IMG/VR virus record: IMGVR_UViG_3300042154_003013 | Span: 1 to 38,470 of that record | DNA: 38,470 nucleotides | Strand: one strand, 5' to 3' | Source of the DNA: a virus | Shown: positions 1,565 through 30,138 of the stretch, piece after piece | Position numbering within the stretch: position 1 is the stretch's first letter | How the letters are laid out: every line of letters begins with the position of its first letter | Made by a program: the position numbers and the translations under genes | The notes under the pieces: generated by a model | Told to the model about the DNA's origin: nothing | The model's database searches: none | The model's input: only the letters and a program-made list of their open reading frames with translations

Positions 1565-1568
1565 GAGT

Positions 1569-1775
1569 TTATTCCTTTACGGGTGCCGCAGCAAAATCTG
1601 CCGTCCACGCATCTCTAAATGTTCGGTCTGCAGGTATATCTGCTGCATCCACTATCAAGTAGGGCCGACCGGCGGGCACTGCCTGTAATGCTTGTTCTTG
1701 TTCTATGCCAGGTGCAGGTACTACAACGGATATACCGTCATCATCGTTTGGGTAAATTATTCTATAGTCTGTCAT
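1569..1775 (-). CDS. Small conserved tail-locus protein with IPADRTFRDAW motif
   Basis: 68 aa: MTDYRIIYPNDDDGISVVVPAPG at the start, then VPAGRPYLIVDAADIPADRTFRDAW and a short charged tail. The combination of RIIYxNDDGGxxVVxPAP, VPAGxPYxIVD and IPxDRTFRxAWxxDF is a common small phage family found beside fibre genes; its function is not known to me. The gene sits 11 bp after the 155-aa fibre protein and 4 bp before the 295-aa one, consistent with one polycistronic message. No membrane segment or signal peptide. Confidence 0.78.
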   Translation of the reverse strand: MTDYRIIYPNDDDGISVVVPAPGIEQEQALQAVPAGRPYLIVDAADIPADRTFRDAWTADFAAAPVKE

Positions 1776-1786
1776 TTTATTTTTCC

Positions 1787-2883: not shown

Positions 2884-2892
2884 TTCATTCCT

Positions 2893-3150: not shown

Positions 3151-3169
3151 TTATACCTCTAATGTTTAA

Positions 3170-3547: not shown

Positions 3548-3616
3548 TTTGTTTTTCCTCTTGTTAAGTTGATGCAGAAATATCTGCTTTTTAATGTCAT
3601 GTATAGTTTTCGTTTG

Positions 3617-5286: not shown

Positions 5287-5338
5287 TGTTTACTCTTTAT
5301 TTGGTTGGTACTTCTAGTTCTACTACTGCTGTGCATTA

Positions 5339-6298: not shown

Positions 6299-6299
6299 T

Positions 6300-6653
6300 T
6301 TAGATTATATCCTCATATGAGCACACTGCTTGCAGTCGCGAGTTGGCGCCAGCGGTCAGTCTCAATGAGTCACCTTCTTCTAGGTAAATTGATTTACTAA
6401 TCATGTCTATGGTCGAGTCAGCAGGAACCAGGATTGTTTTTGCAATATGATATGCAATATCGCCTCTAAAAAGGTCTACAGTAACCGATTCATCGTTGAC
6501 CCCATCAATATTGCTCACGTACAATGAGCCAATTTTTAAAACTTTGTTGCTGGCACTGCTGTTGGTAACAATAGCAGTTGCAGCAGTTGTCACTGATTGA
6601 ACTGCGGTTTTTGGTGTGATTGTTGTTAAATTTAATAAATTTGGTGTTGTCAT
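6300..6653 (-). CDS. Jelly-roll-like small structural protein, family member 1 (117 aa)
   Basis: The ATG at 6653 is chosen because GGAGG ends 6 bases before it; an in-frame ATG at 6665 lies inside the end of the previous gene. The protein is MTTPNLLNLTTITPKTAVQS ... KIGSLYVSNIDGVNDESVTV, DLFRGDIAYHIAKTILVPAD, then [20 protein letters not shown] and a short VCSYEDII end. It is clearly related to the 118-aa protein at 14692-15048 (shared xVLYxxN, xDLxRxxIxYxIAxxxxVP, [14 protein letters not shown], SYE). The 110-aa protein at 8036-8368 and the start of the 441-aa protein are more distant relatives. Strand pattern suggests a small beta-sandwich, perhaps a virion accessory protein. Function unknown. 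Confidence 0.8.
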   Translation of the reverse strand: MTTPNLLNLTTITPKTAVQSVTTAATAIVTNSSASNKVLKIGSLYVSNIDGVNDESVTVDLFRGDIAYHIAKTILVPADSTIDMISKSIYLEEGDSLRLTAGANSRLQAVCSYEDII

Positions 6654-6654
6654 G

Positions 6655-11687: not shown

Positions 11688-14600
11688 TTAAATCATCACT
11701 ACTCCGCCGCCATCAATAGACGGTACTCCGCCAAATACTGATGTAGGCGATCCACCGTCCAAGTTTATGTACGGGTCTGCGGTGATTGTTAATGCTTTAG
11801 GAACAGAGTTTGCATTTGTTTCTAGTATTATTCCTCTACCAGCAACTATCTGAATAGTGTCCAAGCCGCTGGCAATCAGTGTTTCTTGTCCTTCGACTTC
11901 CCAAAATTTGAATGTGCTGTTCATACCAATCTTGGCAATACCATTGCCCAAATTGGTCACATCAAATCCGCTGTCTTCATCGAATCTCAATGTGGAAACA
12001 CTGGATACGGTGTTGGCTACGTTTCCGCCTATCTTCAACAGATCAACAGTGAGTGCTGTTATTGCGTTGCCACTCAGGTCAAAATATCCATTGGCATAAA
12101 TGCTGTCAGCAGTAACACTGGTGTTGACTGTTAAACTAGATAAATTACCAACTTTGGTAATGTTTGGTTGAGTACTTCCAGTTACTATATTTGCAAAATT
12201 TGCATTTAGGTTGACAACTTCTGTGCGAGATGCAACTTGTAAAGGAGCAAAACCGTTGATTTCGGTTGAAATAAACTTACGAGCACGTATATCACCGTAG
12301 TCGCCAACAAAAGTGCCGTTTACTTCATACCCTTCTTCGTAAAAAGTAAAAGTGCCGGTTTCGTTACTCCAACCAAAAAATGCTGTTCTAGGCTGGCCTT
12401 TGTAGTAAGCTATCTTTACACCAATGTCTCGTCCGTCATCGGTGATCAGCGGTTCGCCATCTTCACTGGTGTGTAATTCTAATATGCTGTCAGCGTAGGT
12501 TACTTCTCTGCTGTTGACTACAAAGGTGTTGCCCTGCACTGTCAGATTGCCAAATACGCCCAAGTTACCACGAACTGTGGACTCGGTTCCTGCAACATTT
12601 AAATTACCGCCAATGCCAACACCGCCTGCTACTATAAATGCACCAGTAGTAGAATTGAAAGAAGGATCAGTGTTTGCAAAGTTGACAGTATGATAAACAA
12701 TATCCTGTATTGTACCAGTTGCGCCTATACTTCCTGTATATCCGCGACTGCCAGTAAAACCTTGAATTCCTTGATCGCCTGTTAACCCTCTGGGACCAGT
12801 GGCGCCTTCTACACCGGTTGCACCCTGCAAGCCAGTGGGGCCCCGGGATCCGGTTGCACCAGTTGCACCACCTGGATCACCAGCATCACCTTTGAGTCCG
12901 GTTGCACCTCGGCTACCAACAAAACCAATTGGACCTGTTGAGCCTTCAAGGCCAGATATACCACGTGGCCCTGTTGCGCCAGTTGACCCGTCAACTCCGT
13001 CGGTGCCTGTGAAACCACGCGGGCCTGTGGCACCCTGAATACCTGCTGCGCCTGTTATACCACGTGGACCTGTTGCTCCAGTTGATCCGTCAACACCATC
13101 TGTACCAGTAAAACCTCTTGGGCCTGTGGCACCTGTGCTACCTGCTTCACCTGTTGTACCACGAGCGCCAGTTGCGCCGTCTGCGCCGTCTGCTCCATCT
13201 GAGCCAGCTGATCCACGAATTCCAGTGGCACCCGGTGGGCCTGCTTCGCCTGTTGTACCACGTGGACCTGTTGCTCCAGTTGACCCATCAGCTCCGTCGG
13301 TACCTGCATTTCCTTGACTACCGGTTGCACCCTGTGGGCCTGCTTCACCTGTTATACCACGTGGACCTGTTGCTCCAGTTGACCCATCAGCTCCGTCGGT
13401 ACCAGTAAATCCACGAATTCCAGTAGCACCCTGGGGGCCCGCTTCACCAACTGTACCACGTGGACCTGTTGCTCCAGTTGACCCATCGGCTCCGTTGGTA
13501 CCTGCATTTCCCTGACTACCAGTGGCCCCCTGCGGTCCTGCTTCACCTGTTATACCACGTGGTCCTGTTGCACCGGCTGCGCCGTCAACACCGTCTGTAC
13601 CAGTAAAACCACGCGGACCTGTGGCACCTTGGGACCCTGCTTCACCTGTTATACCTCTTGGTCCTGTTGCACCGGCTGCGCCGTCAACACCATCTGTACC
13701 AGTAAAACCACGCGGACCTGTTGCGCCCGGTGGACCTGCTTCGCCTGTTGTACCACGTGGACCAGTAGCACCAGATGCGCCATCTGAGCCTGCAGTTCCT
13801 GGCAATCCTTGGCTACCACGACTTCCTGTGTAACCCAACGGACCCAGGCCGCCTGTTAATCCTATGCTACCTGTAAATCCACGAACTCCTGGTGCGCCAG
13901 TTGCGCCATCGTTACCAGTTTCTCCGCTTGGTCCTGTTGCTCCTGTAGGACCTTGTGCACCTGTTGCACCCATTGCACCATATGGTGCTCCGTTGGCATA
14001 AAAAATAGTATCAGTGTAAACGCTTTCAAGATGTGCAGCACCGGAAACACCAATGCCTCCTGCAACAACCAAAGCGCCAGTTGTGGTACTGACCGCATTT
14101 ACATTGCCAGAAACAATCAATCCACCTGTTTCTATGTCCCCAAGGTTGCCGCTGACAACACCACCGTTGCTTACAGTAGCGTCGGAATAATATGTTAATC
14201 TTCCGGTAGAGTTGTCCCAAATCAAAAATGCAGTTTGGGCTCCAGTACTGCTTTTGTAATAATTAAACGCTACACCAATGTCTCTGCCGTCGTCAACGGT
14301 GAGTATGTTTCCATTGGTATGCAACTGTATCAGCGAATCATCAACTGTTGAATCCTGTGCATTTACTGTGTTTAGTGTGCCAGACAGAACCAAATTACCA
14401 GTTACTGTCAGGTCTATAGCAGTTAGTGCATTCTGAATACCAACTTGAGTAATATTTGGCTGCGACGAAGTCTGTATTGTTCCAGTAATACTGGATCCAA
14501 TGATGTTGTCAACATGTAAATTACCTGCTATGCCAACACCACCCGAGACCTTTAATGCTCCTGTTGTAGTTGACGTGCTAGTACCAGCATTGGTAATACT

Positions 14601-14690
14601 TAGAGTCGTGCCTAGAACAGTAGCAGTAACATTGCTACCATTTGCAAAGTTTTGTAGAACTGGCGGTTGTCGTAAGTATCTGATAGTCAT
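11688..14690 (-). CDS. Collagen-like tail fibre protein (1000 aa)
   Basis: Layout: N-terminal shaft region (1-240) with two TTGALxVxGGxGxxGxx modules and a domain around [20 protein letters not shown] (133-152). The collagen-like region (241-659) has about 139 Gly-X-Y triplets with a single one-residue break at Gly607, mostly GATGPRG, GITGEAG and GFTGTDG. A C-terminal shaft (680-1000) contains a second copy of the DDGRDIGV domain (near 767), then [20 protein letters not shown] and a tail [17 protein letters not shown]. Collagen-like phage fibres form extended trimeric stalks. The few prolines in the Y position and high Thr fit bacterial/phage collagen. Eight tandem 99-bp repeats lie inside. 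Its start is one base after the previous stop (coupled translation). Confidence 0.9.
12981..13772 (-). repeat. Eight tandem 99-bp (33-aa) collagen repeats
   Basis: Residues 307-570 of the collagen-like protein divide into eight consecutive 33-residue units, each starting GATGPRG (or GATGARG), then GxxGEAG and ending near GTDGxDGxx. DNA identity between units is high, with whole phrases repeated. The units alternate between two endings, [10 protein letters not shown] and GNAGTxGADG, which suggests duplication of larger blocks as well. Such arrays can change copy number by recombination, altering stalk length in 10-nm-scale steps (inference). Confidence 0.9.
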
Positions 14691-14691
14691 G

Positions 14692-15048
14692 TTAACTCAT
14701 GATCTCATATGAAATAACATACTGCAATACTCCTGCTGCGGATGCAGATACTCGTATTGAGTCACCTTCTTCAAGATAAATGCTGGTATCTTTGGCAATT
14801 GCAACCAATGAATTACCAATTGGTACTGGAACTCCACTGGCTATTTTGTAACTGATAGAATTTCTATACAGGTCAATTGTGGCCACGCTGTCCGACACTC
14901 CCAAATTGGTAATGTACAGCACATTGACCCTATAGGCCTGAGAACTGTTTATAGGATTTGTCAAAATTGCCGACATTGACGCAGACACCCATTCGGCTTT
15001 GGTTTTTCCTATAATAGAAGTTGTAGTTATTAAATTGGGTGCTGCCAT
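14692..15048 (-). CDS. Jelly-roll-like small structural protein, family member 3 (118 aa)
   Basis: [60 protein letters not shown], then [20 protein letters not shown] and the end YVISYEIMS. It shares the whole plan of the 117-aa protein at 6300-6653, including [11 protein letters not shown] and the SYE ending. It lies just before the collagen-like fibre gene, as the relative at 6300 lies just before the Gly-rich protein, so the family may be a connector or cap for the adjoining fibre. That role is inference. A CATAAATA box is 49 bases upstream. Confidence 0.8.
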
Positions 15049-15146: not shown

Positions 15147-18100
15147 CTAAATTACACCATAGTTTACCCAAGAACTTTCTTGGCCGGTTACTCCAGTGGC
15201 GCCAGGTTGTGATCCCACTTGTAATGTGTAATACATCGTTGTTGGGATAGAAATAACTGGTTTTAATTGTACTTGAAAAGTTCCTCTTGTTCCAATTGAA
15301 GTTGTTGTTGAAATTGTAAAAGATCCAGAAGTGGCAACAAAGTCACTGAGTGGAGTTTCAGGAGACGTGCCGCCACCAATATTGGGAGCACCTGACAAAA
15401 TTTTCCAATACAAAAGTTGCCCAATTGGGCCATCAGTAACAACAGTATATTGCTTAGATTCACCAGCAATATGATCGCCACTTGCAGCACCAATTAAAAT
15501 AGAAGTCAACACCGGTGGTGGAGGTGGTGGAGGTGGTGGAGAAGCTGGAGTTTGACTTGTATCATTGATAATGATTGTAGAGCTTGTTGCCAATGTTGTA
15601 CCGGTGGTACTGGTACTATGCAGTGTTACAGTAAATGGTTCCGGACCTTCAGTGGTGGTGTCAGCAGTTGGCGTAACGCTAAATGATCCAGAATTACCAG
15701 TAATTGTCAATGAGCCGCTGGTTGTACCAAAATCTCCAGAGTTTGTTGCAGCAATACTCCAATAATACGTGCCGTCGATAATATTTGTGCCGCCCACATT
15801 AATTGTTAAGCTGCTTCCTTCATTGACGCTAATTGCTGCCGGAGTCAGAGTATAAGTTGGTGGTGGTGGTGGTGCATCTATTAGACCAACAGTTGCCTTT
15901 GTGACTACTCTGGTATCAGTTTCTAAAACTTTAAGGGTTAAGAATTCTTCGCTTTCAATGATAGTGTCGTTGATAATTGGGCCCACTCTAACCACATAAA
16001 CAAGCTCTGTCATCATAACAGGAGTTCGTTCTGAAATAACTGTAAACGAAGACACAGCCGCGTTGGCCAAACTAGCATATGACAACACATCAATATAATC
16101 CTGCCCGGCACTTACTGTTCCTTCAGTACTGAATACAACTTTAATGTTGGCTGTTGTTGTGCTAACTACCCATTCAAAATATGGTGCCAATTCATTTACT
16201 CTCAGGTTTCTGGGTACAATTGTTATGCGACTTGTTGGTGGTGGTGGTTTGGTACCACCAATCACCTCAACATATATACCTTTTGTCATACCAGCCTGTC
16301 CATGTTGGCTTAACAATGTGTAACTGAAACTGTCAAGTCCTGCATAATCAGGAAACGGAACATACACAATAGATGTACGGTCATTGCTTATTTTGGCATA
16401 CCCGTGCTGAGGTTGTGATATCACCACAGGCTCTGCAAAATGGCTTGCGCCAACTCTTTTGTTTAAACCAGAATTAAATACATTTGCAGAAGCAAGAACC
16501 TGTGTGGTCATTGTAACACTGTTGGCTTGCTTTGGTGCATTGTTTCCAGTGGCTGCTACACCAAACGTGGTATTTAAATCAGAAGCAAAGTCGTAGCCTG
16601 CTGCATATCGTGCCGGATTGAATCGTTGTCGATAATACTCAATGCTTTGCAGATTGGTAAAATCAACCCGAACTGAATTTCTAGGCATGAGATAAGTGTT
16701 ATCACTGACCACAGTGACTACTCCACTGAGGGGCCTGGTAAATATCAATCTGTTGTCATGAGTAATTTTAAATGTATCAGGTGCTGCGGCAAAGTCCAGT
16801 TTGTTGTATCGAGCATTGACCATCCTGGTTCCATTGACTGGTGGAACATTTGATACAATATCATAACTAGCACTAGGGCGCATCAGCTGTATTTCATTTA
16901 ACTCATCTAAGTATTCTGGACGTGGAGGGTGTATATCCACAGGGAACGGCATACCATTGGGTGCCAATTCAAATTCTATTTCGCTATAGGTGTCTGTTGG
17001 ATCCAGTATTCGTCGTCGGTTGAATTCAGTTGTCTCTCTTTCATTGTATGCATTTCTAGTATGCCATACCAATCGTCCGCTCATTGTACTAATCGATGCT
17101 GCAACACTTTTCTTGTCAAGGGATCTAGGGTTTCGTGGGGATCTGGTTGACCAAACTACTATTCCAGAACTGGTTTTTATTCTAGCAGCTACTCCTGGGC
17201 GGAATACCAAGGGTAGATCACTGTCAAAACCGGACTTGACGCTAATAATATACCATCCTTGGGACAACGATCTGAAACCACTGAATGATGTTAATGCATT
17301 TGCCTCTCTTGTATTTGTGTCTGTTGTATCATATGGGTTAGTTGATACCAAATTGGTAAACTGTGTTTCTGACAGACTTGTATCAGAATTATCTTGATTT
17401 GTATACGATGAATCCAGTTTAAAAAATCTAACAGAAGCTTCCGTGGATACTGAAACTTCGGTGGTATATATGTCGTTGTTGGGCAGGTACACTTCCCATT
17501 GCTGATTTGTGTCTCCTTCAATACAGTAGTTTTGGATCAATGAACTCCAATTTGAAATTGGCCTAAGTATTTGTAAATTAATGGCATCATAATATATAGG
17601 TGCTAGGATTCGATCTCTTTCATTTTCAGCATATATCCTTACATTGTACCAACCGCATCTGAGAATCAAATATACTGCTTCAGCAACGGTTCCGTACCCT
17701 TTGCACTTTTCTTCTGCAGAAACAATTCTTTCATATGGAATTGTTGTACGGTCTATTGTTAAATCAAGGTACGCAGTGTTGTCTGCACTCAATTCAAATT
17801 TGTAATTGCCGCCAGCTGGAATAAAAACTTGCCAAGTATAGTAGTTGCCCGACCATGTAACTTGATTACCAATTCCTTTTAGTTCCAAGAATACATTTTG
17901 TAAACCAGTCGGTGGTGCTGGATCCCAGTCTCCGACTCCTAACACTATGATAGATTTATCAGTGAAAGTCTGATCCAGCACAAGAGACCCACTTGCTGTA
18001 GCTGTTGTACGGCTTGCAAATTGACGTTCGTACAGTACGTTAGGGGCAGTAACTGTTGGATATCTTCTTATATCCCATTGCCAGTAACCAATCTTGATAT

Positions 18101-20453
18101 TTTTTTCTGCTGTAAATCTAGACCTCCAATTGATTTCTGTACCTGGTGCTCCCCTAAACAAGTCTGCCATGGTTGAATAAATTCCATAAGTCAACAACTC
18201 GTTCTGCGTTACAGCACTTCCAATGATAACTATATCAGCGTCTGGCTTGGTGCCGTAATCAGGGACAAAATTTTCTAGCATGGGTGCCACACCCACATAA
18301 AACGGAATATCAGTTAACTCAAGATAGTTTTTGGTTATATTGAAATCAATTGCACCAAATCCCACATCCCATAACCTGACATCAATTATGTAACCTGTGA
18401 ATTGTTGACCCTCACCTGGCCTATTGCCAATGACTACAGGATTATTACTTGGCGAATTTACTCGGTCAAGCCCGGTTTCGATGTGCATCAATAAACCGTT
18501 TACATAAAGATAAAATGTATCTTTGTCTACTACCCATGCAATATGCGATCGAGTGTTCCATGGTATATTTACATTGGTATAATACCAGCCGCCGCCTGGG
18601 AGACTTGTGTCTGTACCCGCTCCCCAATCCAGCGCAACCATTATGTTTCCATCAGTATTCAATGCCATCTCGTATTCAGAATCTTTGTTGATGATCATTC
18701 CGCCATTGCCGCCTTCCAAAGGCCAGACAACTGCTTCAATTGTAAATGGTTGTGCTACATCGGTTGTTAATTGCAATTTTGGTACACTGGATGTAGACAC
18801 ATAACTTATTCCTTGAATTCCAAATTGCATACTTGTGTCTGCACAGTCTGGTGTTTCTACTACCAGTGTGTTGACATAAGTTATATCTGCTGCAATTGGT
18901 TCAATGATTTCTTTGATTTCTCCTGACTGCATAACAAACCATCTGGCAATAGGTTTAACTCCTCCGGTGTTTAGCATTCCGTCTGACTTGATAGTATTGG
19001 TATCTGCATCTCCCAAAAACTCCACATCTGCAGTTCTCAGTACATCAACTACATCAGCTGATAATTCTTCTTCCCATATGCTGTAAGTGTTTAACAGTGT
19101 TGACCAATTTGGATTGGTTCCGCCGTGTTTGTAATATTTTCGGTCAGGAAATTCAACTTGAGTAGTATCAACAATCAGATTTGCAACTGTGTCAGGATAC
19201 CCATCAACTATTCCATTGTATGCTTCAAGACCATTGCCAGGCCCTTGCCCTGGAACTCCAACCAATATATACGACGATCTGTATTTAAAATTGACAGAAC
19301 TGTAAATATCAACGCTTGCTCCACAACGATACATTGCATCCAACAATCGTTGGGTCAATCTGTTGGCTTGAGGTTCGTCATAGGTTGTGATTACAACTAT
19401 GTAATCACTATTGGTTTCATTGAGATCGTTGGCCAGCTGATTTGCTTGTTCTACGTCACCGAACACATCGTAATTTTTGTTGTATACAATTCTGCCACTA
19501 TCTCTTTTTATTTTTGTAAGATTGTAACTGCGACCAGTATCGACTAATTTTTCACTTGTGTCACCATTCCATATTCCAGCTGTCAGGATTCCCTTGGTGT
19601 CAAGCAGCCCGCGAGACACTGCTCGGTAAGATACATTATCTCTATGATATACTTCTACCCAGCTGTGTGACTTGGGTTTAAAATCTAGTTGTACCCAATT
19701 TTGTTCTTCCATCACATGTTTTTCTTGATAATCTTTTCTTAAAAACTTATGATGAATTTCAGACTCTACTCCCAAGTGTTTTATTATGGCTTTATTGATG
19801 GCACTGGCCAAACACAAGTCAACCAGTTCCACGTAACCAAGTTGTCTAGGATGTACGCCGTCGGGCAATTCGCCTAACCATCTGCTTATTTTGTGAGCAT
19901 CTGCAATTATATCTTGGTAATCGGTGGCCACACGGCGCATGGCCTCTGCATACTCAGTTGTGTTGATGCCCCTGACCACAGTTGGAGTTTGCCACACCAT
20001 GACTGTGCCTGCCGGCAACTTTTCTCTAAGTTCACGCAAGTTGGATTCGTACTCTGCTACAGGCACATCATAACGAGCATCGTTCATGCCATGATTGATT
20101 ACTACAACGTTTGCTTCTTGATAATCGGGCCACGGTCCGTTTACTCCGTCGTTGCCATCTAATAGCTCACCGGAAGTACTAAAACCCGACGACCGAGAGG
20201 TAACAACAAGTTTATACTGTGGTAAAAACGTTTCGATCAGTCGAGCCGGAGGTTGCGGAACTCGACCTTTTATATTTTTTGAGCTGCAACCGCAGGGATC
20301 GTCTTCTAGGTCTGGATCACTGCCGCACATGATACTGTCGCCATACAATTCAACATAAACAAGATCAGACAGCTGATGTGCTACGCCGGTTACTTCTATA
20401 GCAAGATCGGTTGTAGTCGGGACAATGACACGATGATTGGGTACCAGTAACAC
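15147..20453 (-). CDS. Giant multidomain tail protein: SGNH esterase, FAM3/ILEI-like, LamG-like, Calx-beta-like domains (1768 aa)
   Basis: GTG start at 20453, supported by GGAGG 8 bases upstream and a 3-base gap after the previous stop. Domains in order: SGNH/GDSL hydrolase (about 30-225) with block I YGDSIM (Ser40), block III NHGMND (Asn124) and block V DGVHP (Asp198, His201). FAM3/ILEI-like domain (about 312-405), with FGDVEQANQLANDLNETNSD, YIVVITTYDE and YRSSYILVGVPGQG. LamG/concanavalin-like domain (about 541-700). Beta-rich middle; cadherin-like segment ISQPQHGYAKISNDRTSIVY. Then three beta-sandwiches (about 1407-1527, 1533-1638, 1648-1768) separated by runs of four, five and nine prolines. 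SGNH esterases on phage fibres deacetylate host surface sugars (for example G7C gp63.1). A virion-borne enzyme is likely. Confidence 0.85.
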   Translation of the reverse strand: MLLVPNHRVIVPTTTDLAIEVTGVAHQLSDLVYVELYGDSIMCGSDPDLEDDPCGCSSKNIKGRVPQPPARLIETFLPQYKLVVTSRSSGFSTSGELLDGNDGVNGPWPDYQEANVVVINHGMNDARYDVPVAEYESNLRELREKLPAGTVMVWQTPTVVRGINTTEYAEAMRRVATDYQDIIADAHKISRWLGELPDGVHPRQLGYVELVDLCLASAINKAIIKHLGVESEIHHKFLRKDYQEKHVMEEQNWVQLDFKPKSHSWVEVYHRDNVSYRAVSRGLLDTKGILTAGIWNGDTSEKLVDTGRSYNLTKIKRDSGRIVYNKNYDVFGDVEQANQLANDLNETNSDYIVVITTYDEPQANRLTQRLLDAMYRCGASVDIYSSVNFKYRSSYILVGVPGQGPGNGLEAYNGIVDGYPDTVANLIVDTTQVEFPDRKYYKHGGTNPNWSTLLNTYSIWEEELSADVVDVLRTADVEFLGDADTNTIKSDGMLNTGGVKPIARWFVMQSGEIKEIIEPIAADITYVNTLVVETPDCADTSMQFGIQGISYVSTSSVPKLQLTTDVAQPFTIEAVVWPLEGGNGGMIINKDSEYEMALNTDGNIMVALDWGAGTDTSLPGGGWYYTNVNIPWNTRSHIAWVVDKDTFYLYVNGLLMHIETGLDRVNSPSNNPVVIGNRPGEGQQFTGYIIDVRLWDVGFGAIDFNITKNYLELTDIPFYVGVAPMLENFVPDYGTKPDADIVIIGSAVTQNELLTYGIYSTMADLFRGAPGTEINWRSRFTAEKNIKIGYWQWDIRRYPTVTAPNVLYERQFASRTTATASGSLVLDQTFTDKSIIVLGVGDWDPAPPTGLQNVFLELKGIGNQVTWSGNYYTWQVFIPAGGNYKFELSADNTAYLDLTIDRTTIPYERIVSAEEKCKGYGTVAEAVYLILRCGWYNVRIYAENERDRILAPIYYDAINLQILRPISNWSSLIQNYCIEGDTNQQWEVYLPNNDIYTTEVSVSTEASVRFFKLDSSYTNQDNSDTSLSETQFTNLVSTNPYDTTDTNTREANALTSFSGFRSLSQGWYIISVKSGFDSDLPLVFRPGVAARIKTSSGIVVWSTRSPRNPRSLDKKSVAASISTMSGRLVWHTRNAYNERETTEFNRRRILDPTDTYSEIEFELAPNGMPFPVDIHPPRPEYLDELNEIQLMRPSASYDIVSNVPPVNGTRMVNARYNKLDFAAAPDTFKITHDNRLIFTRPLSGVVTVVSDNTYLMPRNSVRVDFTNLQSIEYYRQRFNPARYAAGYDFASDLNTTFGVAATGNNAPKQANSVTMTTQVLASANVFNSGLNKRVGASHFAEPVVISQPQHGYAKISNDRTSIVYVPFPDYAGLDSFSYTLLSQHGQAGMTKGIYVEVIGGTKPPPPTSRITIVPRNLRVNELAPYFEWVVSTTTANIKVVFSTEGTVSAGQDYIDVLSYASLANAAVSSFTVISERTPVMMTELVYVVRVGPIINDTIIESEEFLTLKVLETDTRVVTKATVGLIDAPPPPPTYTLTPAAISVNEGSSLTINVGGTNIIDGTYYWSIAATNSGDFGTTSGSLTITGNSGSFSVTPTADTTTEGPEPFTVTLHSTSTTGTTLATSSTIIINDTSQTPASPPPPPPPPPVLTSILIGAASGDHIAGESKQYTVVTDGPIGQLLYWKILSGAPNIGGGTSPETPLSDFVATSGSFTISTTTSIGTRGTFQVQLKPVISIPTTMYYTLQVGSQPGATGVTGQESSWVNYGVI

Positions 20454-20456
20454 TAA

Positions 20457-23400
20457 TTAGCCTCCGCGTATATACCATGTGACAGGGAATATTCTTCCTT
20501 TCCTAGGAACACAAAAGTGGCGATCTTTGAAATAAATTCTGTAATTCCAGAAATCAGTTCCTGGAATTTGTAATATCCCTGCATTGTAGTATTTAACCTT
20601 CTCATCCTCGGCGTCATTGTCGTTGTAAAAGCCGCCAGGCTGGTATATGTATTCTTTGGTATACAACACCAACGGCGTGTATGCTCGAGTATAATTGTTG
20701 GCATTGAAATCTCTCAAATTCCATTTGTCATTAAACTGCCCTTGATCTGCCCAGTAATGTATATAAGTACTAACTGCGCCCACGCTAGGAATAGAGTCTT
20801 CCATGGTCCAAATAATATCTTGGAACAACACAGGATCAAAAGGAATAAGTTGGTCTGGTACTATATCCAACATCACAGTCAACGGAATCAGTATTTGTAA
20901 CGGCTGATTCAATAGCGGATCAAAAGGAATAAAGTACACTGGTGGAAGATCTCTCAGCGGGATAAACGGAATATTCAGAACTGTAAATGCTTTTACCAAT
21001 GGTAACATAACTGCCATTAATTCAGTAAACATTGCTGTTGTTGTCGTTACCGGTATCAGTGACTCAGTTGAACGTTCCGGTAACTCTGCTCTATCGGCTG
21101 ATGATATAATCAAATTGATGTAATCTTTTTCTGCATCAATAGGATTAAAGTGTTCAACTTGAGGAAAGATTTTATCAAATTCAAATTGCGGCACATCTGT
21201 CCAACTTTGTTTTAATTCCCCGGACCCTATTGTAAACACCAATTCAGTTTTCGACAGGTCCATCAACAGAGTATTGCTAAAATTAAAAAATGTATAGTCA
21301 GCTTCGTGCAAACTTTGAACATTTGATCGAAATTCGCTAACAAGTTTTTCCCGTAATGATCTTATACGATTAGTTATTTCTTGTATTTTTGCAAAGGTAG
21401 ATAACTCATGTCGGCTTTTAAAACTTGTAGCAATTTGTTCATGCAGACTATTATTAATCGACGAAAATTCCGAATGCCTGTCAAGTATTAGAAACTCAAG
21501 TTTGCTGCTAAAAATTTGAATCAACTTTTCAAGGTCTGCTTGTGTTGCTGTAGACAAATAATTAAAAGACTCCTCCCAGCTGGCAATTTGCGAAGCCAGC
21601 ACACCATAATTTCCAACAATGCCGGACATTGCCTCAGGTGGATCAATCAAATTAAAAGTGTAAAGATTCTCTATGTCTTCTTCAAGACTTGATTCAACAA
21701 ATGATACAATTTCTTCAAGAATAAAAATAAATTTAGTATCAATGTAACTAAACAACTCAATTAGTCGAGCAGCAGTTTCAACTGTCAATATTGAATAATT
21801 GGCCAGCAAGTCCGAATCAATTGAAGTCAATGAAAAAGTAGAACCGTACCCCACTATTCCATTAATCTCAGAAATGTATAATTCCGTATGATTGGAGGAA
21901 ACGCTGTCCTGAATTTTGCCAGTAGAAAATGTCGCCGAATCAATTGAGTCTTCGCGTATGCTATCTATCAAATTATAAGCACCAGCATCAACATATTGGT
22001 GAGTAATTGAACTTATTTTGATATAGTTAGGTTCTAAGAAATTTTGATATATCCGATCTATTAGTAATACTGATAGATCGCTGCCAGCAACTCGCGACGA
22101 TATTGCAAAAAGATTGTATGTGCCAACTCTTACAAACTCTTCAAGAATTCTGTCAGACGCAAAAGTAGTAGGTCGACTTGCCAATGGCAGAATTTCACCT
22201 AGCTCAAACATGGTAGGCAGAGTATTGTTAGGTGTTAATGCAAAATCAAAACTGTTAAATGTACTAGCAAACTGTGCGTCTAACTTGGCTGTTGATATAT
22301 TATTTTGTAGAAGGTCCCCGCCAGATATTATTTTGTTGTCAACATTCCATTGACCGACTGGAAGATATATATTGCTATCAGCTGCTGAATCAAATTCAAC
22401 TTGATAAATTACAACATTGCTTTGAAAGTAGTCAATAAAACTTCTGCGTATTGAGATATTTGACCCAATTGGAACATTGGCAACATAATTACCAAGTCGA
22501 GTTCCATTGATCACAAAATCAGTCTGTACATCCCCAATATAAAGATTTGCTGTTGTGATACCAGACGCCGCAGTTAATACAATATTGGCTGTTTCATAGC
22601 CTGTTAGTTCTTCAACATACGGTGCAGCAACATTACTAAAAATATAATAATAATTGTCAGTGTAAGGATGTATCAATGTATCAAATGTCAATTGATCAAC
22701 CAACTGCGGACCTGAAGTTTTGGCTGTTGCAATGATGGCATTGTTTTGTCCAATCAATACAATGTCCCTGGTGTCTGCTGCCACTGCAGATGTCAGAATA
22801 CCAGTGATAGTCAATTGGTCGCCTACAAATAAATCGTAAGTATTTCCAGATTGAAGAGTAATATTGTTGCCTGCCCTGGTAACAATATATTCAAACTCCG
22901 GAAATAACGAAAGTCCATATCTATACAGATCGGGAACATAATAGTTGTCACTTGCCGGAACTGTTAGTGTTACAGACACTAGAACATTTGTAATAAGATT
23001 GTCAAATAGAAAATTGTGACGAGTTAGTGTGTTGATTGCAGCACTGGCCATCATCGGGATAGGAAATTGACTGGTACCAAGACTCAATATAGGAGCAATT
23101 GCTCTCAATGCTCGATTAAACGGAGTTGTCAATTGAATCAGATCGTTTTTCTTGATAGGTTTATCAATGGTATATTTGCTACCATTCAAGTGCAACTGCC
23201 CGTACGATGCTGCCAGGTACACATTGGATTGTGGTGTCAAGTCTTGGTCAACATAAAATTCAACTGTGTAATCGTAGTCGCTTTTGATTACACCTTTTGC
23301 GATCTTGGGCGCAACAATGCCCAACGACAAATAGAAGTCAAAACTTCCTAAGCCCAGTGGTTTAAATATTCCTGTACCTATTTCACTATAATACACAATA

Positions 23401-26400
23401 CTGCTGCCAGCAGGTGCAGTATTTAATAGAATTTTTTTACCCAGTGGTCTTGCTGCTGTGGACATTCCAATATTCGACGTGGCAGAATGTGAGGTATTGT
23501 CGTAAAAATATTCAATAAATTGGTATTTGTTATTTTGATAAAATCCAACTTCGTACATGAACTCGTCTGGTGGGGTTCCGCTTTTAAATGTTATTGTTGT
23601 ACCCGATGCTACCGACACCGGGGTATCAACGGTAATGAATGCGCCTTGAACTGTTATGTTGGTTAATGCAAGTCCAAAAATTGTACTCAATGTCAGAGTA
23701 GAAAATTCAAACGACACCGGTTTATTCAGTTCAACTCCATCATTTGCCAGAGTTGGCATATTGCTTACTGTGGTGACAGTGGTTGTTTCAATAGTAAATG
23801 TATCACCAGAAGATAATAGATGTACAATACTTGATCCAATAACATAACTATTTCCAATAATTTGTTTGTTTGTTACAAACGTAGCACCTGTGGGTATGCC
23901 TATCAAATATTGATTAACATAGAGCAAATCAAAATCCGAAGAAGAAACAAACATCCTTTGAGGATCTACCAATGATATATTTCCGTTGCCGTCAAACTCA
24001 GTGTATATGCCAAGGCAGGTTATTGTATCAGTTGTTTCTGTAATAGAAGCTATACCAGTTTGGTATACAAAATTGGGTTGTGCCCCAAACGTGGGAATAC
24101 GAATTGACCAATCATTGGTCACCCTGGAATCAATTTTTCCATCAATTATTGCAGTTTTATCAAAAATAGCAAGCAAATGATTGGTCTGAGTGGTTACAGG
24201 TCTAGTTGGTGCAACACTCAAAGTACGAGATTTTGATGTCACATATGACACAGCGCCATCAACTGCACTGTATCTTGCCACAGACAAAACATTAGAATTA
24301 TAGGAGGTAACTGCTACACGACTACCTGATAAAAATTTGTATATTAAAAATTCAAATATTGGAGTCAAATAGTTGCCAACTACTCTAGTTGGCAACACAA
24401 TACCTGCACCAGATACATAATCACCAGTTGATGCTTTGCTGAATTCTGGTACTGCACTTGGTATATCAACAGAACTAGACAATGATGTTCTTGCTGTGAT
24501 TGTATTACCAGCGGGATCTGGATTTCCTTTTATTCCGGCCCATCGAATCCTGGCATAACCAACTCCCAAATTGGACCCAGATTCATAGCTCACTGCCGGA
24601 AGTTCTCCAGTGGTCAGCGGAAAGAATGTAATATTATTAGGGTCAGTGTTGTTTAATGCCAATCCTTGATACAGGTCAGTGAGCTCCACATACAGTGCAT
24701 CAATGTTTAATCCACCAACAGTAGTAAACAGCCCTGTTGGAATACTGCTGCCAAACGATATAAATCCATTGGTGCTTACATTGACTTGTGTATAAGCATT
24801 ACCAAAAAAGTTCCAGGTCAACCCCAAATTCAGCAGTGTTGTTCCAGTTTGAGCATTACCTGTTGTTGGTAATAGCAAAGACGTTACATTTGACAATGTT
24901 GATAATCTATTGATTCCAACCGCACCAGCTTTGTAAGAATTTAAATATTCTCCATCCCCGACCGCTTCAATGTCTATGTCATATGCTTGGTCACCAAGTA
25001 TATATGATACTCTATGCAACCCCGAGCCACCTGCTTTATAACTTATACTAAAATTGTCTCCAGTGTTTGCTGGTTCGTCTTTGATTCCGTTTACCCAGCA
25101 GGTAACTCCTGGTCCGCCATGCAAAATTATACTTTCCTGCCCCAGCATTATTAACTTGACAGGTTCAGTTCCTATGTGTGTCACTGGCCCTTTGACGGGT
25201 CTAATGTTTATAGGAATAACTTTTTCTATTCCTGCTAAATCTAATGTTACATAATCTTTAAGATAATGCACAGCCAACAATGTGTGATTTACCCAAGATG
25301 CTATTGTGACTTTTTCACTAAAATCGTAAACAGTTTGATCGCTCCAACTTGTGTATTTTAACACTTTATTGTTGTCGTATGATGTGATCAACAGATTGTC
25401 ATCAAAAACTCTTGCATAGGCCGGTGCATAACCTGGTGTTGCAACAGAATTTGCCAACACCGGTGGAACCGGACCAACTATTTTCAACAGTCGTTGATGA
25501 TGCGGATCAGGTACTACAATGACCGGAGTGGGCCCAAATGTGTCAACTCTTGCAGGAACGCCCAGTGGCCTGGCTGCATTGTAAAACATAGTAAAGCTGC
25601 CTGCAGCAGTTACTTGATATATTTTTCCTTCTCGAGTAATTGCATATGCAGTAGTTTCTGTTAAACACGATATAGACACAATGCTTTCTGTGCCTATTCG
25701 TACAGTTGCTAGAGTTTGAAAATTCTTATTGAGTACATACACAGTATCGTACCCAGCTACCCATATCAACCCGCCAAACACATCAAGTGCAGTCATTGGC
25801 GGGTTGATTTTTGATCTCAGTGAATTTCGTCTGTTGTCAATATAAGATTCGCCAGTTGGCAAGTCTGCTTCGTACCATATCAGTTCCAACGATCGTATAA
25901 AAGTTATAGTAGGAAAAAACTCAGACGATTCACTGAATTGATTGTCAAATCTGATTCTATATAATTTTTTATCGTTACATATAACAAACAGTTCAACTCT
26001 AGATATGTTGTTTGAATCAACATATCCAGATTTTTTGTACTCAACTGGTCCTGACGGCAAGTAAACACTTGTGACTAATTCTCTATTGGGAGAATAAAAA
26101 TTCACCTGTTCTTTTGTGTGATCCAACACCACATGAGTTGCATCAATGTTGACAAAATTTATGCCGCGGCCCAGGGGTCTGGTTATATCACTATTGGCAT
26201 CATAAAAACTTGTACGTATTTCTCTAGGAAAATAATTAAACCATTTCCTAGGAGCGTCATTGGGTTTAAGTGTTGGACGATAGTCGTTTTGGTTAACTAC
26301 AGCAAATGAATGTTGAATATCATTGAGTGTATACTCGTAAAACTTATATCCCAAATAACCTGGTGGTGTGTCGAGTTCTATCTCAACAATGTCACCAACG

Positions 26401-26549
26401 GCCAATGGTACAGGACGAGTAATTACCTGAGCAATACCAACATAGACTATTACGTCTGTTGCTGAGATACCCAGATCTTGATTGATTAATGAAACAAAAC
26501 TTAGCCTGATTCGACTATTAGGGACGCAGCCCGATACACTGCTGAACAT
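20457..26549 (-). CDS. Giant virion protein with propeller-like, nidogen-like and helical regions (2030 aa)
   Basis: I know no named homologue. The start MFSSVSGCVPNSRIRLSFVS leads to a beta region. Around residues 120-480 strands such as ARPLGVPARVDTFGPTPVIV and NSVATPGYAPAYARVFDDNL suggest an NHL/PQQ-type beta-propeller. Near 560-680 (LTWNFFGNAYTQVNVSTNGF, then ISFGSS) the pattern matches nidogen-like extracellular domains. A long run of beta modules reaches about 1480. About 1540-1780 is strongly helical (HELSTFAKIQEITNRIRSLR), likely coiled coil. A proline-rich segment (FIPLRDLPPVYFIPFDPLLN) and an aromatic C-terminus (GRIFPVTWYIRGG) follow. No transmembrane helix. Size and place suggest a large adhesin or baseplate-attached fibre; the role is inferred. 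Confidence 0.78.
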   Translation of the reverse strand: MFSSVSGCVPNSRIRLSFVSLINQDLGISATDVIVYVGIAQVITRPVPLAVGDIVEIELDTPPGYLGYKFYEYTLNDIQHSFAVVNQNDYRPTLKPNDAPRKWFNYFPREIRTSFYDANSDITRPLGRGINFVNIDATHVVLDHTKEQVNFYSPNRELVTSVYLPSGPVEYKKSGYVDSNNISRVELFVICNDKKLYRIRFDNQFSESSEFFPTITFIRSLELIWYEADLPTGESYIDNRRNSLRSKINPPMTALDVFGGLIWVAGYDTVYVLNKNFQTLATVRIGTESIVSISCLTETTAYAITREGKIYQVTAAGSFTMFYNAARPLGVPARVDTFGPTPVIVVPDPHHQRLLKIVGPVPPVLANSVATPGYAPAYARVFDDNLLITSYDNNKVLKYTSWSDQTVYDFSEKVTIASWVNHTLLAVHYLKDYVTLDLAGIEKVIPINIRPVKGPVTHIGTEPVKLIMLGQESIILHGGPGVTCWVNGIKDEPANTGDNFSISYKAGGSGLHRVSYILGDQAYDIDIEAVGDGEYLNSYKAGAVGINRLSTLSNVTSLLLPTTGNAQTGTTLLNLGLTWNFFGNAYTQVNVSTNGFISFGSSIPTGLFTTVGGLNIDALYVELTDLYQGLALNNTDPNNITFFPLTTGELPAVSYESGSNLGVGYARIRWAGIKGNPDPAGNTITARTSLSSSVDIPSAVPEFSKASTGDYVSGAGIVLPTRVVGNYLTPIFEFLIYKFLSGSRVAVTSYNSNVLSVARYSAVDGAVSYVTSKSRTLSVAPTRPVTTQTNHLLAIFDKTAIIDGKIDSRVTNDWSIRIPTFGAQPNFVYQTGIASITETTDTITCLGIYTEFDGNGNISLVDPQRMFVSSSDFDLLYVNQYLIGIPTGATFVTNKQIIGNSYVIGSSIVHLLSSGDTFTIETTTVTTVSNMPTLANDGVELNKPVSFEFSTLTLSTIFGLALTNITVQGAFITVDTPVSVASGTTITFKSGTPPDEFMYEVGFYQNNKYQFIEYFYDNTSHSATSNIGMSTAARPLGKKILLNTAPAGSSIVYYSEIGTGIFKPLGLGSFDFYLSLGIVAPKIAKGVIKSDYDYTVEFYVDQDLTPQSNVYLAASYGQLHLNGSKYTIDKPIKKNDLIQLTTPFNRALRAIAPILSLGTSQFPIPMMASAAINTLTRHNFLFDNLITNVLVSVTLTVPASDNYYVPDLYRYGLSLFPEFEYIVTRAGNNITLQSGNTYDLFVGDQLTITGILTSAVAADTRDIVLIGQNNAIIATAKTSGPQLVDQLTFDTLIHPYTDNYYYIFSNVAAPYVEELTGYETANIVLTAASGITTANLYIGDVQTDFVINGTRLGNYVANVPIGSNISIRRSFIDYFQSNVVIYQVEFDSAADSNIYLPVGQWNVDNKIISGGDLLQNNISTAKLDAQFASTFNSFDFALTPNNTLPTMFELGEILPLASRPTTFASDRILEEFVRVGTYNLFAISSRVAGSDLSVLLIDRIYQNFLEPNYIKISSITHQYVDAGAYNLIDSIREDSIDSATFSTGKIQDSVSSNHTELYISEINGIVGYGSTFSLTSIDSDLLANYSILTVETAARLIELFSYIDTKFIFILEEIVSFVESSLEEDIENLYTFNLIDPPEAMSGIVGNYGVLASQIASWEESFNYLSTATQADLEKLIQIFSSKLEFLILDRHSEFSSINNSLHEQIATSFKSRHELSTFAKIQEITNRIRSLREKLVSEFRSNVQSLHEADYTFFNFSNTLLMDLSKTELVFTIGSGELKQSWTDVPQFEFDKIFPQVEHFNPIDAEKDYINLIISSADRAELPERSTESLIPVTTTTAMFTELMAVMLPLVKAFTVLNIPFIPLRDLPPVYFIPFDPLLNQPLQILIPLTVMLDIVPDQLIPFDPVLFQDIIWTMEDSIPSVGAVSTYIHYWADQGQFNDKWNLRDFNANNYTRAYTPLVLYTKEYIYQPGGFYNDNDAEDEKVKYYNAGILQIPGTDFWNYRIYFKDRHFCVPRKGRIFPVTWYIRGG

Positions 26550-26596: not shown

Positions 26597-27904
26597 TCAA
26601 GGATAGTTGACGTGGCTGTTTTCAATTTGAATATTTTGAAGTAGGTTTTGTTGATCTGTTGCATTTGGGTCATAACCCATTCTGGTTAAAACCATCAATC
26701 GCATACCAGTACCAAATCGTTCTGTTGAATACAAGGCTGTGTATTCTCTTTTGTAGGTTTCTTCATATACATTGACTAAAACAGCAGTACCTGCACCTAT
26801 TACTTCAGCTCCAACTGTGCCCAACATGTCAAGTTCATCAGCGTAACGATAACGTGGAGTACTAAGATTGTTCAAAAATGTAACAACAAACTCTCCGCTT
26901 TCTGTCAATGATTGTTGTGGGAACGGATTCAACAACGCTGGACTGTCCTCAGTGTCAAAAGCTGCTGGTCTTTTGGTACTTGGTGTAAGAATGTCAACTT
27001 CTCGAACAACAAATTTTTGAAACTGCTGTGGCGATGAAGTACCACTTACACAAAACACAGGACATCTGCTGGTTTCTGCACGAGGGTTACTGTCTTCTCT
27101 AAGCTTTGAACCGCCTCTTACGTGTCCGGTCGTGCGCTCAACTGACCGCTGAATTAAGAACCATCGCAAGGGTGAATTTCCTTGTGTTCCGTCAGGATTG
27201 GGAATGGTGCTGTCAAATGTTCGTTGCGGAACTTCTTCCTGGCTACCTTCCCAAATAGATAAAAATATTCCTCTGTTTGTCAGAGTCATTTGATACGACA
27301 TTGGATATGCCGATTCAGAACTTTTACTAGAATACCTGTTTAACCAAATCCTATTAAATTCAGCTGTTGCAGGCGAAACCCCAATTCCACCAGAAATAAT
27401 AGTAGTTCCAGATGTGGATAGATTACCAATGTTTGCAGTGGCCACCACTGTTGCATTGCCCCAATCGCTACCTATGTTACCTGCTGGCTCTCGTAACGTC
27501 ACGTTACCGTTGGATGATCGGTTATTTAGTTGCGCAATAACTCCGTTATCGTCTAATTGCAACGACGACGCTGCATGCACTGCCAGACGGTAATCGTCAA
27601 TTTGATGGAAACACAATCTCCAACCTGGTTCAGCCAATGAGGTATTTGCACCAACTACTGCTGCATTTGCCAATGGGTCAACGTTGGTTGTTGTTTTTAA
27701 TATATGAACAAATTTTGCCGTTGCACCACCGTTGCTGGTTTTTGCCGATCCAGCAGTGGGCAGTCCCATTACTGCAGAATCGTATGCTGTTTGAAAATAT
27801 TGTGTTGAATTACCAGTGCTGGTGCCGGTAATTTCGGACAAAATATCAGCCAGGATGGCATCAACGGTTGTAAAGCCAAATTTTGTAACTGAATAACAAG
27901 CCAT
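26597..27904 (-). CDS. Virion structural protein, paralogue of the 739-aa protein (435 aa)
   Basis: Begins MACYSVTKFGFTTVDAILAD with a strong SD (AGGAG). From about residue 94 it runs parallel to the gene upstream: GWRLCFHQIDDYRLAVHAAS / LQLDDNGVIAQLN, AYPMSYQMTLTNRGIFLSIW, WFLIQR, PVFCVSG, FVVREVDIL, FLNNLSTPRYRYADELDMLG and the end GTGMRLMVLTRMGYDPNATD. The conserved block FxxNLSTPRxRYxxELDMxG is the clearest marker. I do not recognise a named T4 homologue. The position between the fibre genes and the giants suggests a baseplate- or tail-associated protein. A 47-bp gap follows, holding a perfect 12-bp palindrome (CCTTGATCAAGG) at the stop codon. Confidence 0.8.
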   Translation of the reverse strand: MACYSVTKFGFTTVDAILADILSEITGTSTGNSTQYFQTAYDSAVMGLPTAGSAKTSNGGATAKFVHILKTTTNVDPLANAAVVGANTSLAEPGWRLCFHQIDDYRLAVHAASSLQLDDNGVIAQLNNRSSNGNVTLREPAGNIGSDWGNATVVATANIGNLSTSGTTIISGGIGVSPATAEFNRIWLNRYSSKSSESAYPMSYQMTLTNRGIFLSIWEGSQEEVPQRTFDSTIPNPDGTQGNSPLRWFLIQRSVERTTGHVRGGSKLREDSNPRAETSRCPVFCVSGTSSPQQFQKFVVREVDILTPSTKRPAAFDTEDSPALLNPFPQQSLTESGEFVVTFLNNLSTPRYRYADELDMLGTVGAEVIGAGTAVLVNVYEETYKREYTALYSTERFGTGMRLMVLTRMGYDPNATDQQNLLQNIQIENSHVNYP

Positions 27905-27918: not shown

Positions 27919-30138
27919 TTATGGTTCTACTTGCGGAATATCTTTAAGAACAGATATTCTTAATCCTGTGTTGTAAGGATTGTTAGCCGGCAATGCTCTA
28001 TATGTCCTAGCGCCTGCTTCGTTGTATGCAGTAATAGATATATCTGTACCAGCCATGCAAACGTCTGCAGATGTTTGGCCAATCATATCCAATTCTTCAG
28101 AATATCTGAATCTAGGTGTAGACAAATTGTGCAAGAATGAAACCAAATACTTACTGTCTTCTGTTAGTGCAACCTGATTGGTTGTATTCAATATTGCAAA
28201 ACTATCTTGTGTGTTGGCATCAGCTGGAACACGATGCGGCACCGACTGCGATATAATCGTAGAGTTTGAAAACACCCATGACAACTTTGTATTTTGAGGA
28301 TCACCTGTGGTTGGATGCAATACATCTTCTTCTCTGAGAATAAATTTCCAATATTGGTATCCAACGGAATTAATACAAAATACAGGAGCACGACCTTTGG
28401 TTAGAACTTTTCCAGTATTTCTATTGGCCGGACGTTGGATCAAAACCCAATTAAAAAAGCTATCGCCGCCGGCACCTATACGCTTGGTTTTTTGCATGGT
28501 ACTCCATGTGCCTTCCCATACACCCCAGAAAACACCGCGGTCAGTCATGGTCAATGCATAATTAAACGGATACGCTTCGGGATCAGTTTGCACTCTGGCT
28601 TCACGATTTATAAAACCTTGTGTTGGATCTGCTACGTTTGGCGAAGCTGCTGTTCCTGTTGGCAACGAACCTAAAATGCCCGAACGGTCTGTCAACGTAA
28701 AAGCTGTACCAGTAGAGGCTGCAAGATATATATTAGCAATGTTTCCATTGTCTTGAAGTTGTAATTCAGTTGCAGCATATACCACCACTGACTGTGGACC
28801 AGCTTCGGGTTTGGTTTTATTTTCTTTAATATCAAATGCCATTCGCCATGGTTGCAATTGATCAAATTTAAATTGCAATGTTTCGCCAGCAGTAAAACTA
28901 CTCAACGGTCTGCTCATTTCAATATTCGCAATAGTTCCAGTGTTGTCCATGGTGATTGCTGAAACATAAACAGAATCGCCCGGACCAATACTGCCGTTTT
29001 GCACTGTGCTTGTTATTGACTGCCCTTCATGTATGCGCGGGCGATAACGCACGCCGTTACCAGCATTGCTGATGCTAGTTATCTCTATATATTTAGAATT
29101 TGTACCCGACACTCGTATATCGCCAACTACACCCAATGGATCATTGAGAGGATCAACTGCCCCATTGGCTTCAACTGTCACTTGCCATGCTTTTGGTGAT
29201 TGAGTTTTGTTGTTTGTAAAGGATGCACCGGTGCCTTTAAATATTACATTGTCCCCTCTTTTCAGAGTAACAGCATTACTTAAGATTATATAAGTGCCAT
29301 CACCTAGAGCTTCTCTGTAACTACCGGGACTGAACGGTACTCCTTCGGTCCCCTTAATGAATTTCATTGGAACTACACTAACCACAGTGGTGCCAGCGGG
29401 TATAACACTATTAGCACTGTTGATTTTTTCTACATCCAATTCTACCAATTGGCCGTTGAATATTCTTTGTGTAAATGCTCCAGTGACAATATTTGCTTGA
29501 AACCATATACCGGTAGCTGGCCACCTGGTACCTAGGGCACCGCCCGATCCTCCAGTACCATAGTCCATGTTCCATTGAGTAGGGTCAACACCGCTAGCTG
29601 GGCTCGGAATAGGAGTAGGAGTACCTACACTGTTTGTAACGTTGCCTAGTATTATATGGCCTGTAGTCGACGACGGTACAGTGTTGGCAACAATTACGTT
29701 TTTATTAACAGGTGTATAATCTATTGCATATGATGCTATCCTATTAGCAGAATTGCTAGTAATAACATTGGCTTCGTAGTTACCTGGCCAGGTAACTGCA
29801 ACATTACTTATAGCACCTGTTCGTGTTACCACATTAGAAACAGTTAATTTAATATTTGAGCCAATTGGTAATTTCAATTCCAATACATTACCAATCCTGT
29901 AACCAATACCAGGGTCAAGTATTTCTATCATTCTTTCCACTATTGGCCACTCTGGAGTAGTCAATACAAAGTTGTTGACATCTGTTAATTTTGCTGATTT
30001 GAATGAAAATTCACCCTGGGTTGTCATGTCGGTAACTGTATCCGTAACCAACGTACCTACATTTGTGTATCCCGATCTTTCAACAGAGTAAAATTGATAT
30101 GTGGGTTTTGAAACCTCATAAATTGTACTGATTGCCAT
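27919..30138 (-). CDS. Virion structural protein, longer paralogue (739 aa)
   Basis: Start MAISTIYEVSKPTYQFYSVE with GGAGAA upstream. The first ~80 and last ~290 residues correspond to the 435-aa protein next to it (LQLQDNGNIANIY, AYPFNYALTMTDRGVFWGVW, NWVLIQRPANRNTGK, PVFCIN, FILREEDVLHPTTG, FLHNLSTPRFRYSEELDMIG, NTGLRISVL). The middle (about 90-440) is an insertion of Gly/Asn/Thr-rich beta modules such as IEILDPGIGYRIGNVLELKL and SNAGNGVRYRPRIHEGQSIT, a repeat style also present in the 410-aa protein. This gives a duplication in which one copy gained, or the other lost, about 300 residues. A GATAAATA box 54 bases upstream suggests it heads a transcription unit with the giants. Confidence 0.82.
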   Translation of the reverse strand: MAISTIYEVSKPTYQFYSVERSGYTNVGTLVTDTVTDMTTQGEFSFKSAKLTDVNNFVLTTPEWPIVERMIEILDPGIGYRIGNVLELKLPIGSNIKLTVSNVVTRTGAISNVAVTWPGNYEANVITSNSANRIASYAIDYTPVNKNVIVANTVPSSTTGHIILGNVTNSVGTPTPIPSPASGVDPTQWNMDYGTGGSGGALGTRWPATGIWFQANIVTGAFTQRIFNGQLVELDVEKINSANSVIPAGTTVVSVVPMKFIKGTEGVPFSPGSYREALGDGTYIILSNAVTLKRGDNVIFKGTGASFTNNKTQSPKAWQVTVEANGAVDPLNDPLGVVGDIRVSGTNSKYIEITSISNAGNGVRYRPRIHEGQSITSTVQNGSIGPGDSVYVSAITMDNTGTIANIEMSRPLSSFTAGETLQFKFDQLQPWRMAFDIKENKTKPEAGPQSVVVYAATELQLQDNGNIANIYLAASTGTAFTLTDRSGILGSLPTGTAASPNVADPTQGFINREARVQTDPEAYPFNYALTMTDRGVFWGVWEGTWSTMQKTKRIGAGGDSFFNWVLIQRPANRNTGKVLTKGRAPVFCINSVGYQYWKFILREEDVLHPTTGDPQNTKLSWVFSNSTIISQSVPHRVPADANTQDSFAILNTTNQVALTEDSKYLVSFLHNLSTPRFRYSEELDMIGQTSADVCMAGTDISITAYNEAGARTYRALPANNPYNTGLRISVLKDIPQVEP

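Follow-up and report, generated by a model that had tools for sequence, protein, structure and literature searches.

An SGNH–ILEI–LamG protein in the tail module of an environmental jumbo phage and the family to which it belongs

We describe a 1768-residue protein, encoded in the tail module of a virus, that joins an SGNH hydrolase domain, an ILEI (FAM3- or GG-type) domain and a LamG domain in this order. The window, the whole stretch of DNA that was analysed, is the 38,470-base virus record IMG/VR IMGVR_UViG_3300042154_003013. The SGNH–ILEI union is a recurrent and apparently undescribed architecture: phage fibres were known to carry each part by itself, the combination looks new, and no description of the two domains in one polypeptide was found in the literature. 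On balance, the protein probably serves a T4-like jumbo phage as an adhesin associated with its tail, and would bind a host surface glycan and O-deacetylate it.

The gene, its domains and the tail module

The gene lies on the minus strand and opens with GTG. The stop-to-stop frame adds only one codon before this GTG, and the N-terminus of the protein is thus fixed. The gene and the parts of its product are the following.

15147..20453, minus strand: SGNH–ILEI–LamG tail-module protein, 1768 aa, GTG start (open reading frame and Pfam)
19764..20366, minus strand: SGNH hydrolase domain, residues ~30-230 (Pfam PF13472, AlphaFold, Foldseek)
20334..20336, minus strand: Ser40, block I nucleophile (GDS; motif position)
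20082..20084, minus strand: Asn124, block III (GMND; motif position)
19851..19862, minus strand: Asp198-Gly-Val-His201, block V (motif position)
19194..19667, minus strand: ILEI/FAM3/GG-type domain, modelled fold, residues ~263-420 (Pfam and AlphaFold)
19245-19532, minus strand: ILEI Pfam core, residues 308-403 (Pfam)
19530..19532, minus strand: Arg308, putative sugar contact corresponding to POMGnT1 Arg129 (FAM3B alignment; PMC9802357)
19377..19379, minus strand: Asp359, equivalent of POMGnT1 Asp179 (FAM3B alignment)
19278..19280, minus strand: Arg392, equivalent of POMGnT1 Arg207 (FAM3B alignment)
18366..18761, minus strand: LamG (Laminin_G_3) domain, residues 565-696 (Pfam)
16299..16544, minus strand: Big_9-like segment, residues 1304-1385 (Pfam, just below the cut-off)
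15150..16247, minus strand: three C-terminal segments split by proline runs, residues 1403-1768 (sequence)

A Pfam search of the whole protein placed Lipase_GDSL_2 (PF13472) at residues 37-207 (43.8 bits against a cut-off of 32.9), ILEI (PF15711) at residues 308-403, over profile positions 1-90 of 90 (44.2 bits, cut-off 27; 49.7 bits in a further Pfam search of the window), and Laminin_G_3 (PF13385) at residues 565-696 (58.7 bits, cut-off 27.6). The three domains that an earlier note had called from the sequence, SGNH, FAM3/ILEI and LamG-like, are thus all recovered with scores above the cut-offs. The limits of 312-405 and 541-700 given there for the second and third nearly coincide with those of the profiles; the fold modelled for ILEI begins earlier, at about residue 263. 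The SGNH set is complete in the window, with Ser40, Gly90, Asn124 and Asp198/His201 representing blocks I, II, III and V, and the intact motifs claimed earlier at Ser40, Asn124, Asp198 and His201 stand at exactly those positions. Proline runs at 1403-1406, 1528-1532 and 1639-1647 divide the final 366 residues. The three Pro-linked beta-sandwiches proposed for this region survive as three segments, but their beta-sandwich nature draws no profile support beyond the Big_9 match just before them (1304-1385; 22.3 bits, slightly short of the cut-off of 23.6).

The surroundings of the gene are those of a tail module.

11688..14690, minus strand: repetitive tail fibre, 1000 aa, same module (phrog tail-fibre matches and synteny)
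14692..15048, minus strand: 118-aa gene directly downstream (70-84% identical in loci L024-L027 and L039)
20457..26549, minus strand: upstream partner, 2030 aa (synteny; neighbours the SGNH–ILEI gene in L024-L027 and L039)
26597..27904, minus strand: tail sheath-like protein, 435 aa (phrog_12249 and synteny)
27919..30138, minus strand: second tail sheath-like protein, 739 aa (phrog_12249 and synteny)

The order sheath, sheath, 2030-residue partner, SGNH–ILEI gene, 118-residue gene, fibre is kept in IMG/VR loci L024-L027 and L039 within each locus's reach, the L027 locus stopping before the sheath genes; some relatives have extra sequence between the last two steps. The SGNH–ILEI gene thus sits between sheath and fibre genes, with neighbours conserved in five relatives, and from this neighbourhood we infer that its product is present in the virion. 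The 2030-residue partner has no family match and no relative among 50,697 phage records. Jumbo phages such as PA5oct, Paride, GAP32 and Phosso have major capsid proteins that are 65-69% identical to that of this virus.

Several further features of the region were observed. An adjacent pair of sheath-like genes is seen also in L026 and L039, and sheaths similar to the window's pair occur in Alexandra-type jumbo phages. The 118-residue gene (14692-15048, minus strand) and a 121-residue gene (6300-6665, minus strand) match the same place in the relatives and therefore look like paralogues, each standing before a fibre-type gene. In blastn against an overlapping contig, the DNA of the fibre gene (11688-14690, minus strand) aligns in multiple registers, each shifted by about 99 bases (33 codons), and so repeats itself. 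Between the capsid and protease genes, a 365-residue protein of phrog_10922 (36153-37250, minus strand) reaches 21.4 versus 22 bits for Globin, which is probably a chance match.

Predicted folds and known relatives

Residues 1-440 were modelled with AlphaFold from a 44-sequence alignment of the window and IMG/VR locus proteins only. The SGNH part (about 30-230) and the ILEI part (about 263-420) of this first model were well modelled, with low confidence elsewhere. In Foldseek searches of the PDB, the SGNH part matched the acetyl-xylan esterase Axe2 and the acetyl-mannan esterase CEX (probability 1.00), and the second domain matched FAM3B, FAM3C, FAM3A, the POMGnT1 stem in complex and TMEM2 (probability 1.00). 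A structural match of the ILEI stretch to the FAM3 fold had been set beforehand as the test of that domain call, and these proteins provide it. Residues 196-202 were poorly modelled, probably as a consequence of the trimming of the relatives there in the first alignment; they form a confident loop in a second model, built from a second alignment. This second model, of residues 1-235 (pLDDT 83, pTM 0.80), is confident through blocks I and V, the loops of which reach a pLDDT of about 90 or more per 10-residue block. As far as loop confidence bears on the second test set beforehand, a close approach of Ser40, Asp198 and His201, this model does not speak against the SGNH call. It gave 55 PDB matches at E <= 0.001, and SGNH/GDSL proteins dominate among the matches listed. 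The best match of this SGNH-only model was the phage tail fibre SFP21A gp09, followed narrowly by the proteins from Shigella phage B2 and Moo19, and the catalytic domain of the peptidoglycan O-acetyltransferase OatA was matched as well (E 2.3e-4). In the viral structure library BFVD, the ILEI model matched gp35 hinge connectors and ILEI proteins. By these models, the two domains of the window protein are predicted to have an SGNH (flavodoxin-like) fold and a FAM3-type fold, respectively. The ILEI family has no match in the 14 control genomes (0/14, Pfam profile), so the match in the window is not a promiscuous one; taken with the above-cut-off score and the fold match, this rules out chance.

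The earlier note held that, elsewhere, ILEI occurs in cytokine-like proteins of animals and in some sugar-binding proteins of bacteria. This proved wrong, as the domain has long been known in phage fibres as the "GG domain". The literature groups phage gp35 with FAM3, POMGnT1 and TMEM2 as carriers of the GG domain (PMC10276149), and an ILEI domain has been described in the tail fibres of Basilisk-like Bacillus phages (PMC6145125). Relatives of the window's ILEI region were found in 81 of the 50,697 phage records, among them phage G gp431 and Dickeya and Erwinia phage proteins that carry an ILEI annotation. T4-type gp35, the Basilisk-like fibres, phage G gp431 and the Alexandra/AD1-type ILEI proteins all have the same domain by Pfam, by sequence (about 30-40%) or by fold. 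Unlike the window, the ten named ILEI-bearing phage genomes that were searched have no SGNH domain anywhere. Human FAM3B/FAM3C, the POMGnT1 stem and TMEM2 have the fold in common with the window ILEI domain, and FAM3B the aligned Arg/Asp/Arg as well; these are animal proteins, without an SGNH domain. A recent capture of ILEI from animals is not supported, the domain being widespread and diverse in phages.

For the SGNH domain, the known parallels are adsorption proteins. Possum gp66 and G7C gp63.1 deacetylate O-antigen (PMC9569702), and among the SGNH RBPs of Klebsiella prophages two have esterase activity (PMC13123978). All of these carry SGNH on an adsorption protein, O-deacetylation of a surface glycan having been proposed or shown; they differ from the window protein in the placement of SGNH, and ILEI is not reported in them. 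The earlier note knew of no described phage protein with its domain order. The window protein is not alone in it: SGNH followed by ILEI is found in 16 other IMG/VR contigs and in the UniProt phage protein A0A6J5T0B2, from an uncultured Caudovirales phage (BFVD/UniProt; SGNH and ILEI, 56% identity over 420 alignment columns). The name of the latter, "SGNH hydrolase-type esterase domain containing protein", records SGNH only, and we know of no functional work on it.

The SGNH–ILEI family and its lost residues

A scan of IMG/VR with the ILEI alignment gave 60 loci, among which 17 contigs have the same SGNH subfamily and ILEI in one open reading frame, SGNH always coming first; the 17 include L022, the window's own virus on another contig. 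Among the 16 other contigs, 15 pass the cut-off of the Pfam SGNH model, the exception being L039, whose motifs are degenerate. Two groups, types A and B, separate with full support on the SGNH-domain tree. Type A comprises the window, L024-L027 and L039, with proteins of 1254-1768 residues, an N-terminal SGNH domain and ILEI at about 310. LamG follows ILEI in four of the six and is absent in L026 and L039; because the middle of the protein, LamG included, is missing in these two, we regard LamG as exchangeable, and it may add specificity. Type B (L023, L041, L044 and others) comprises open reading frames of 3782-5094 residues, in which SGNH and ILEI lie about 1000-1400 residues apart. Their SGNH domains are of the window's subfamily (30-44%) and are likewise followed by ILEI, but most members, unlike the window, have an insert of about 100-200 residues between SGNH blocks I and II. 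L044 has LamG after ILEI, as in the window. The one type B gene that was scanned stands downstream of a gene for a baseplate wedge, and its product has a phrog_10938 virion structural stretch in the N-terminal half. Considering that the lengths match, an origin of the type B giants by fusion of the window's 2030-residue neighbour with the SGNH–ILEI gene was entertained. It was rejected, as the N-termini of the giants have no significant similarity to the 2030-residue protein, and the membership of the scanned giant in phrog_10938 contradicts it further.

Other arrangements were seen in the scans. The L045 contig has SGNH and ILEI in two separate open reading frames. Two ILEI domains occur in the open reading frames or records of L036, L037 and L038 and in the record of L008, which suggests duplication of ILEI within phage fibres. 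In L020, the open reading frame at 1253-7756 encodes a gpJ-like tail-tip protein that has CBM_4_9 and, towards its far end, ILEI, a third kind of carrier. A genome scan found only one relative, SGNH-only, in a Rhizobacter MAG contig, too little to assign a host.

The full SGNH set is kept in six of the 17 proteins (the window, L024-L027 and L044). The nucleophile has been lost in five. In L039 the Ser is replaced by Asp, the block III Asn by His and the block V His by Tyr, and in L023, L048, L066 and L077 the GDS motif has become GDG (Ser to Gly). The SGNH tree requires four independent losses of the nucleophile. In six more members the Ser and the His are kept but the Asn of block III is missing. 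Elsewhere in the domain, many residues are invariant despite the loss of the nucleophile. To judge by these sequences, the enzyme has died several times in the family with its fold kept. The plausibility of enzyme activity, as put forward in the earlier note, therefore holds for the window copy, which is predicted to be active and has its motifs intact, and fails as a general rule across the family.

In the ILEI domain, Arg308, Asp359 and Arg392 align with an Arg/Asp/Arg set of FAM3B. In FAM3B the three are 50 and 28 residues apart, just as Arg129, Asp179 and Arg207 are in POMGnT1, the equivalence to the POMGnT1 residues being drawn by way of this alignment and not residue by residue. The three POMGnT1 residues are reported as GlcNAc contacts (PMC9802357), and the window's ILEI domain may bind a GlcNAc-like sugar. 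The putative sugar-binding set is complete in the window and in eight of the 17 SGNH–ILEI proteins overall, and incomplete in nine, a count that rests mainly on the Asp and the second Arg because some gaps at the first Arg reflect the ends of local alignments. A linked loss of catalysis and of the ILEI pocket was considered and no pattern was seen, the pocket being complete in 2/5 of the proteins that have lost the Ser and in 6/12 of those that have kept it.

Function of the protein and of the family

In the adhesin that we propose, the N-terminal SGNH domain would be of the carbohydrate O-acetylesterase type and active as an acetylesterase, and the FAM3/POMGnT1-type (ILEI, GG) domain after it would probably hold a sugar. 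An exchangeable LamG domain of lectin type would come next, and then an Ig-like region at the C-terminus. As the SGNH tail fibres of G7C and Possum have been shown to do, the protein would most likely recognise a host surface polysaccharide and remove its O-acetyl groups during adsorption. Against this reading stand the five of 17 proteins without the nucleophile, the six more without the block III Asn, and the ILEI set complete in only 8/17. The SGNH domain of the window is also N-terminal, and phage fibres often have their anchor at that end; the GG domain of gp35 sits in a hinge connector, not in a receptor-binding tip.

The main rival takes up these points. It holds that SGNH and ILEI are glycan-binding or hinge/scaffold modules, comparable to the GG hinge of gp35, and that catalysis is incidental. 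We judge this possible, if on the unlikely side. The retention of so many domain residues in L039, L023, L048, L066 and L077, after four independent losses of the nucleophile, favours it, as do the incomplete ILEI pockets in 9/17 and the match of the ILEI model to the gp35 connectors. As the nucleophile has been lost repeatedly, the rival is serious for the family. It is less so for the window copy: the window and L024-L027 are only 52-59% identical and yet keep the whole catalytic set, which would not be expected unless it were selected for, and the closest solved phage SGNH domains belong to enzyme-type tail-fibre proteins. It is very improbable that the SGNH domain deacetylates peptidoglycan, and not capsule or O-antigen, as an aid to wall penetration. 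SGNH folds do act on peptidoglycan in other proteins, and the match to OatA points the same way, but carbohydrate esterases and phage fibres match better, the ILEI and LamG companions suit surface glycans, and neither the gene nor its scanned neighbours have a lysin domain. Scarcely credible is a non-virion protein that alters the surface glycan of the infected host to keep other phages out, an idea put forward in the annotation of the PBR31 deacetylase. In Xanthomonas phage PBR31, a stand-alone SGNH gene beside the integrase carries an annotation that gives O-antigen modification as a possible role. The window protein, in contrast, is a giant multidomain protein inside a sheath-to-fibre block whose order is kept across relatives, and one member of type B extends a family of virion structural proteins.

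An adhesin with esterase activity could go further and work as a coupled read-and-erase module, in which the FAM3-type lectin holds the glycan while the esterase deacetylates it, and the family passes repeatedly from one state to another (enzyme plus lectin, lectin alone, enzyme alone) as the surface acetylation of hosts changes. We consider this elaboration doubtful. If it is true, the sugar pocket of POMGnT1 and FAM3 would be an old phage receptor-binding device. The view of ILEI as chiefly an animal domain is corrected. The SGNH–ILEI family offers a natural series, from putatively active enzyme to dead nucleophile and with the sugar pocket intact or lost. With this series it can be tested how phages give up catalysis in favour of simple binding to acetylated glycans, and whether the sugar pocket of human POMGnT1 also works in phage adhesins.
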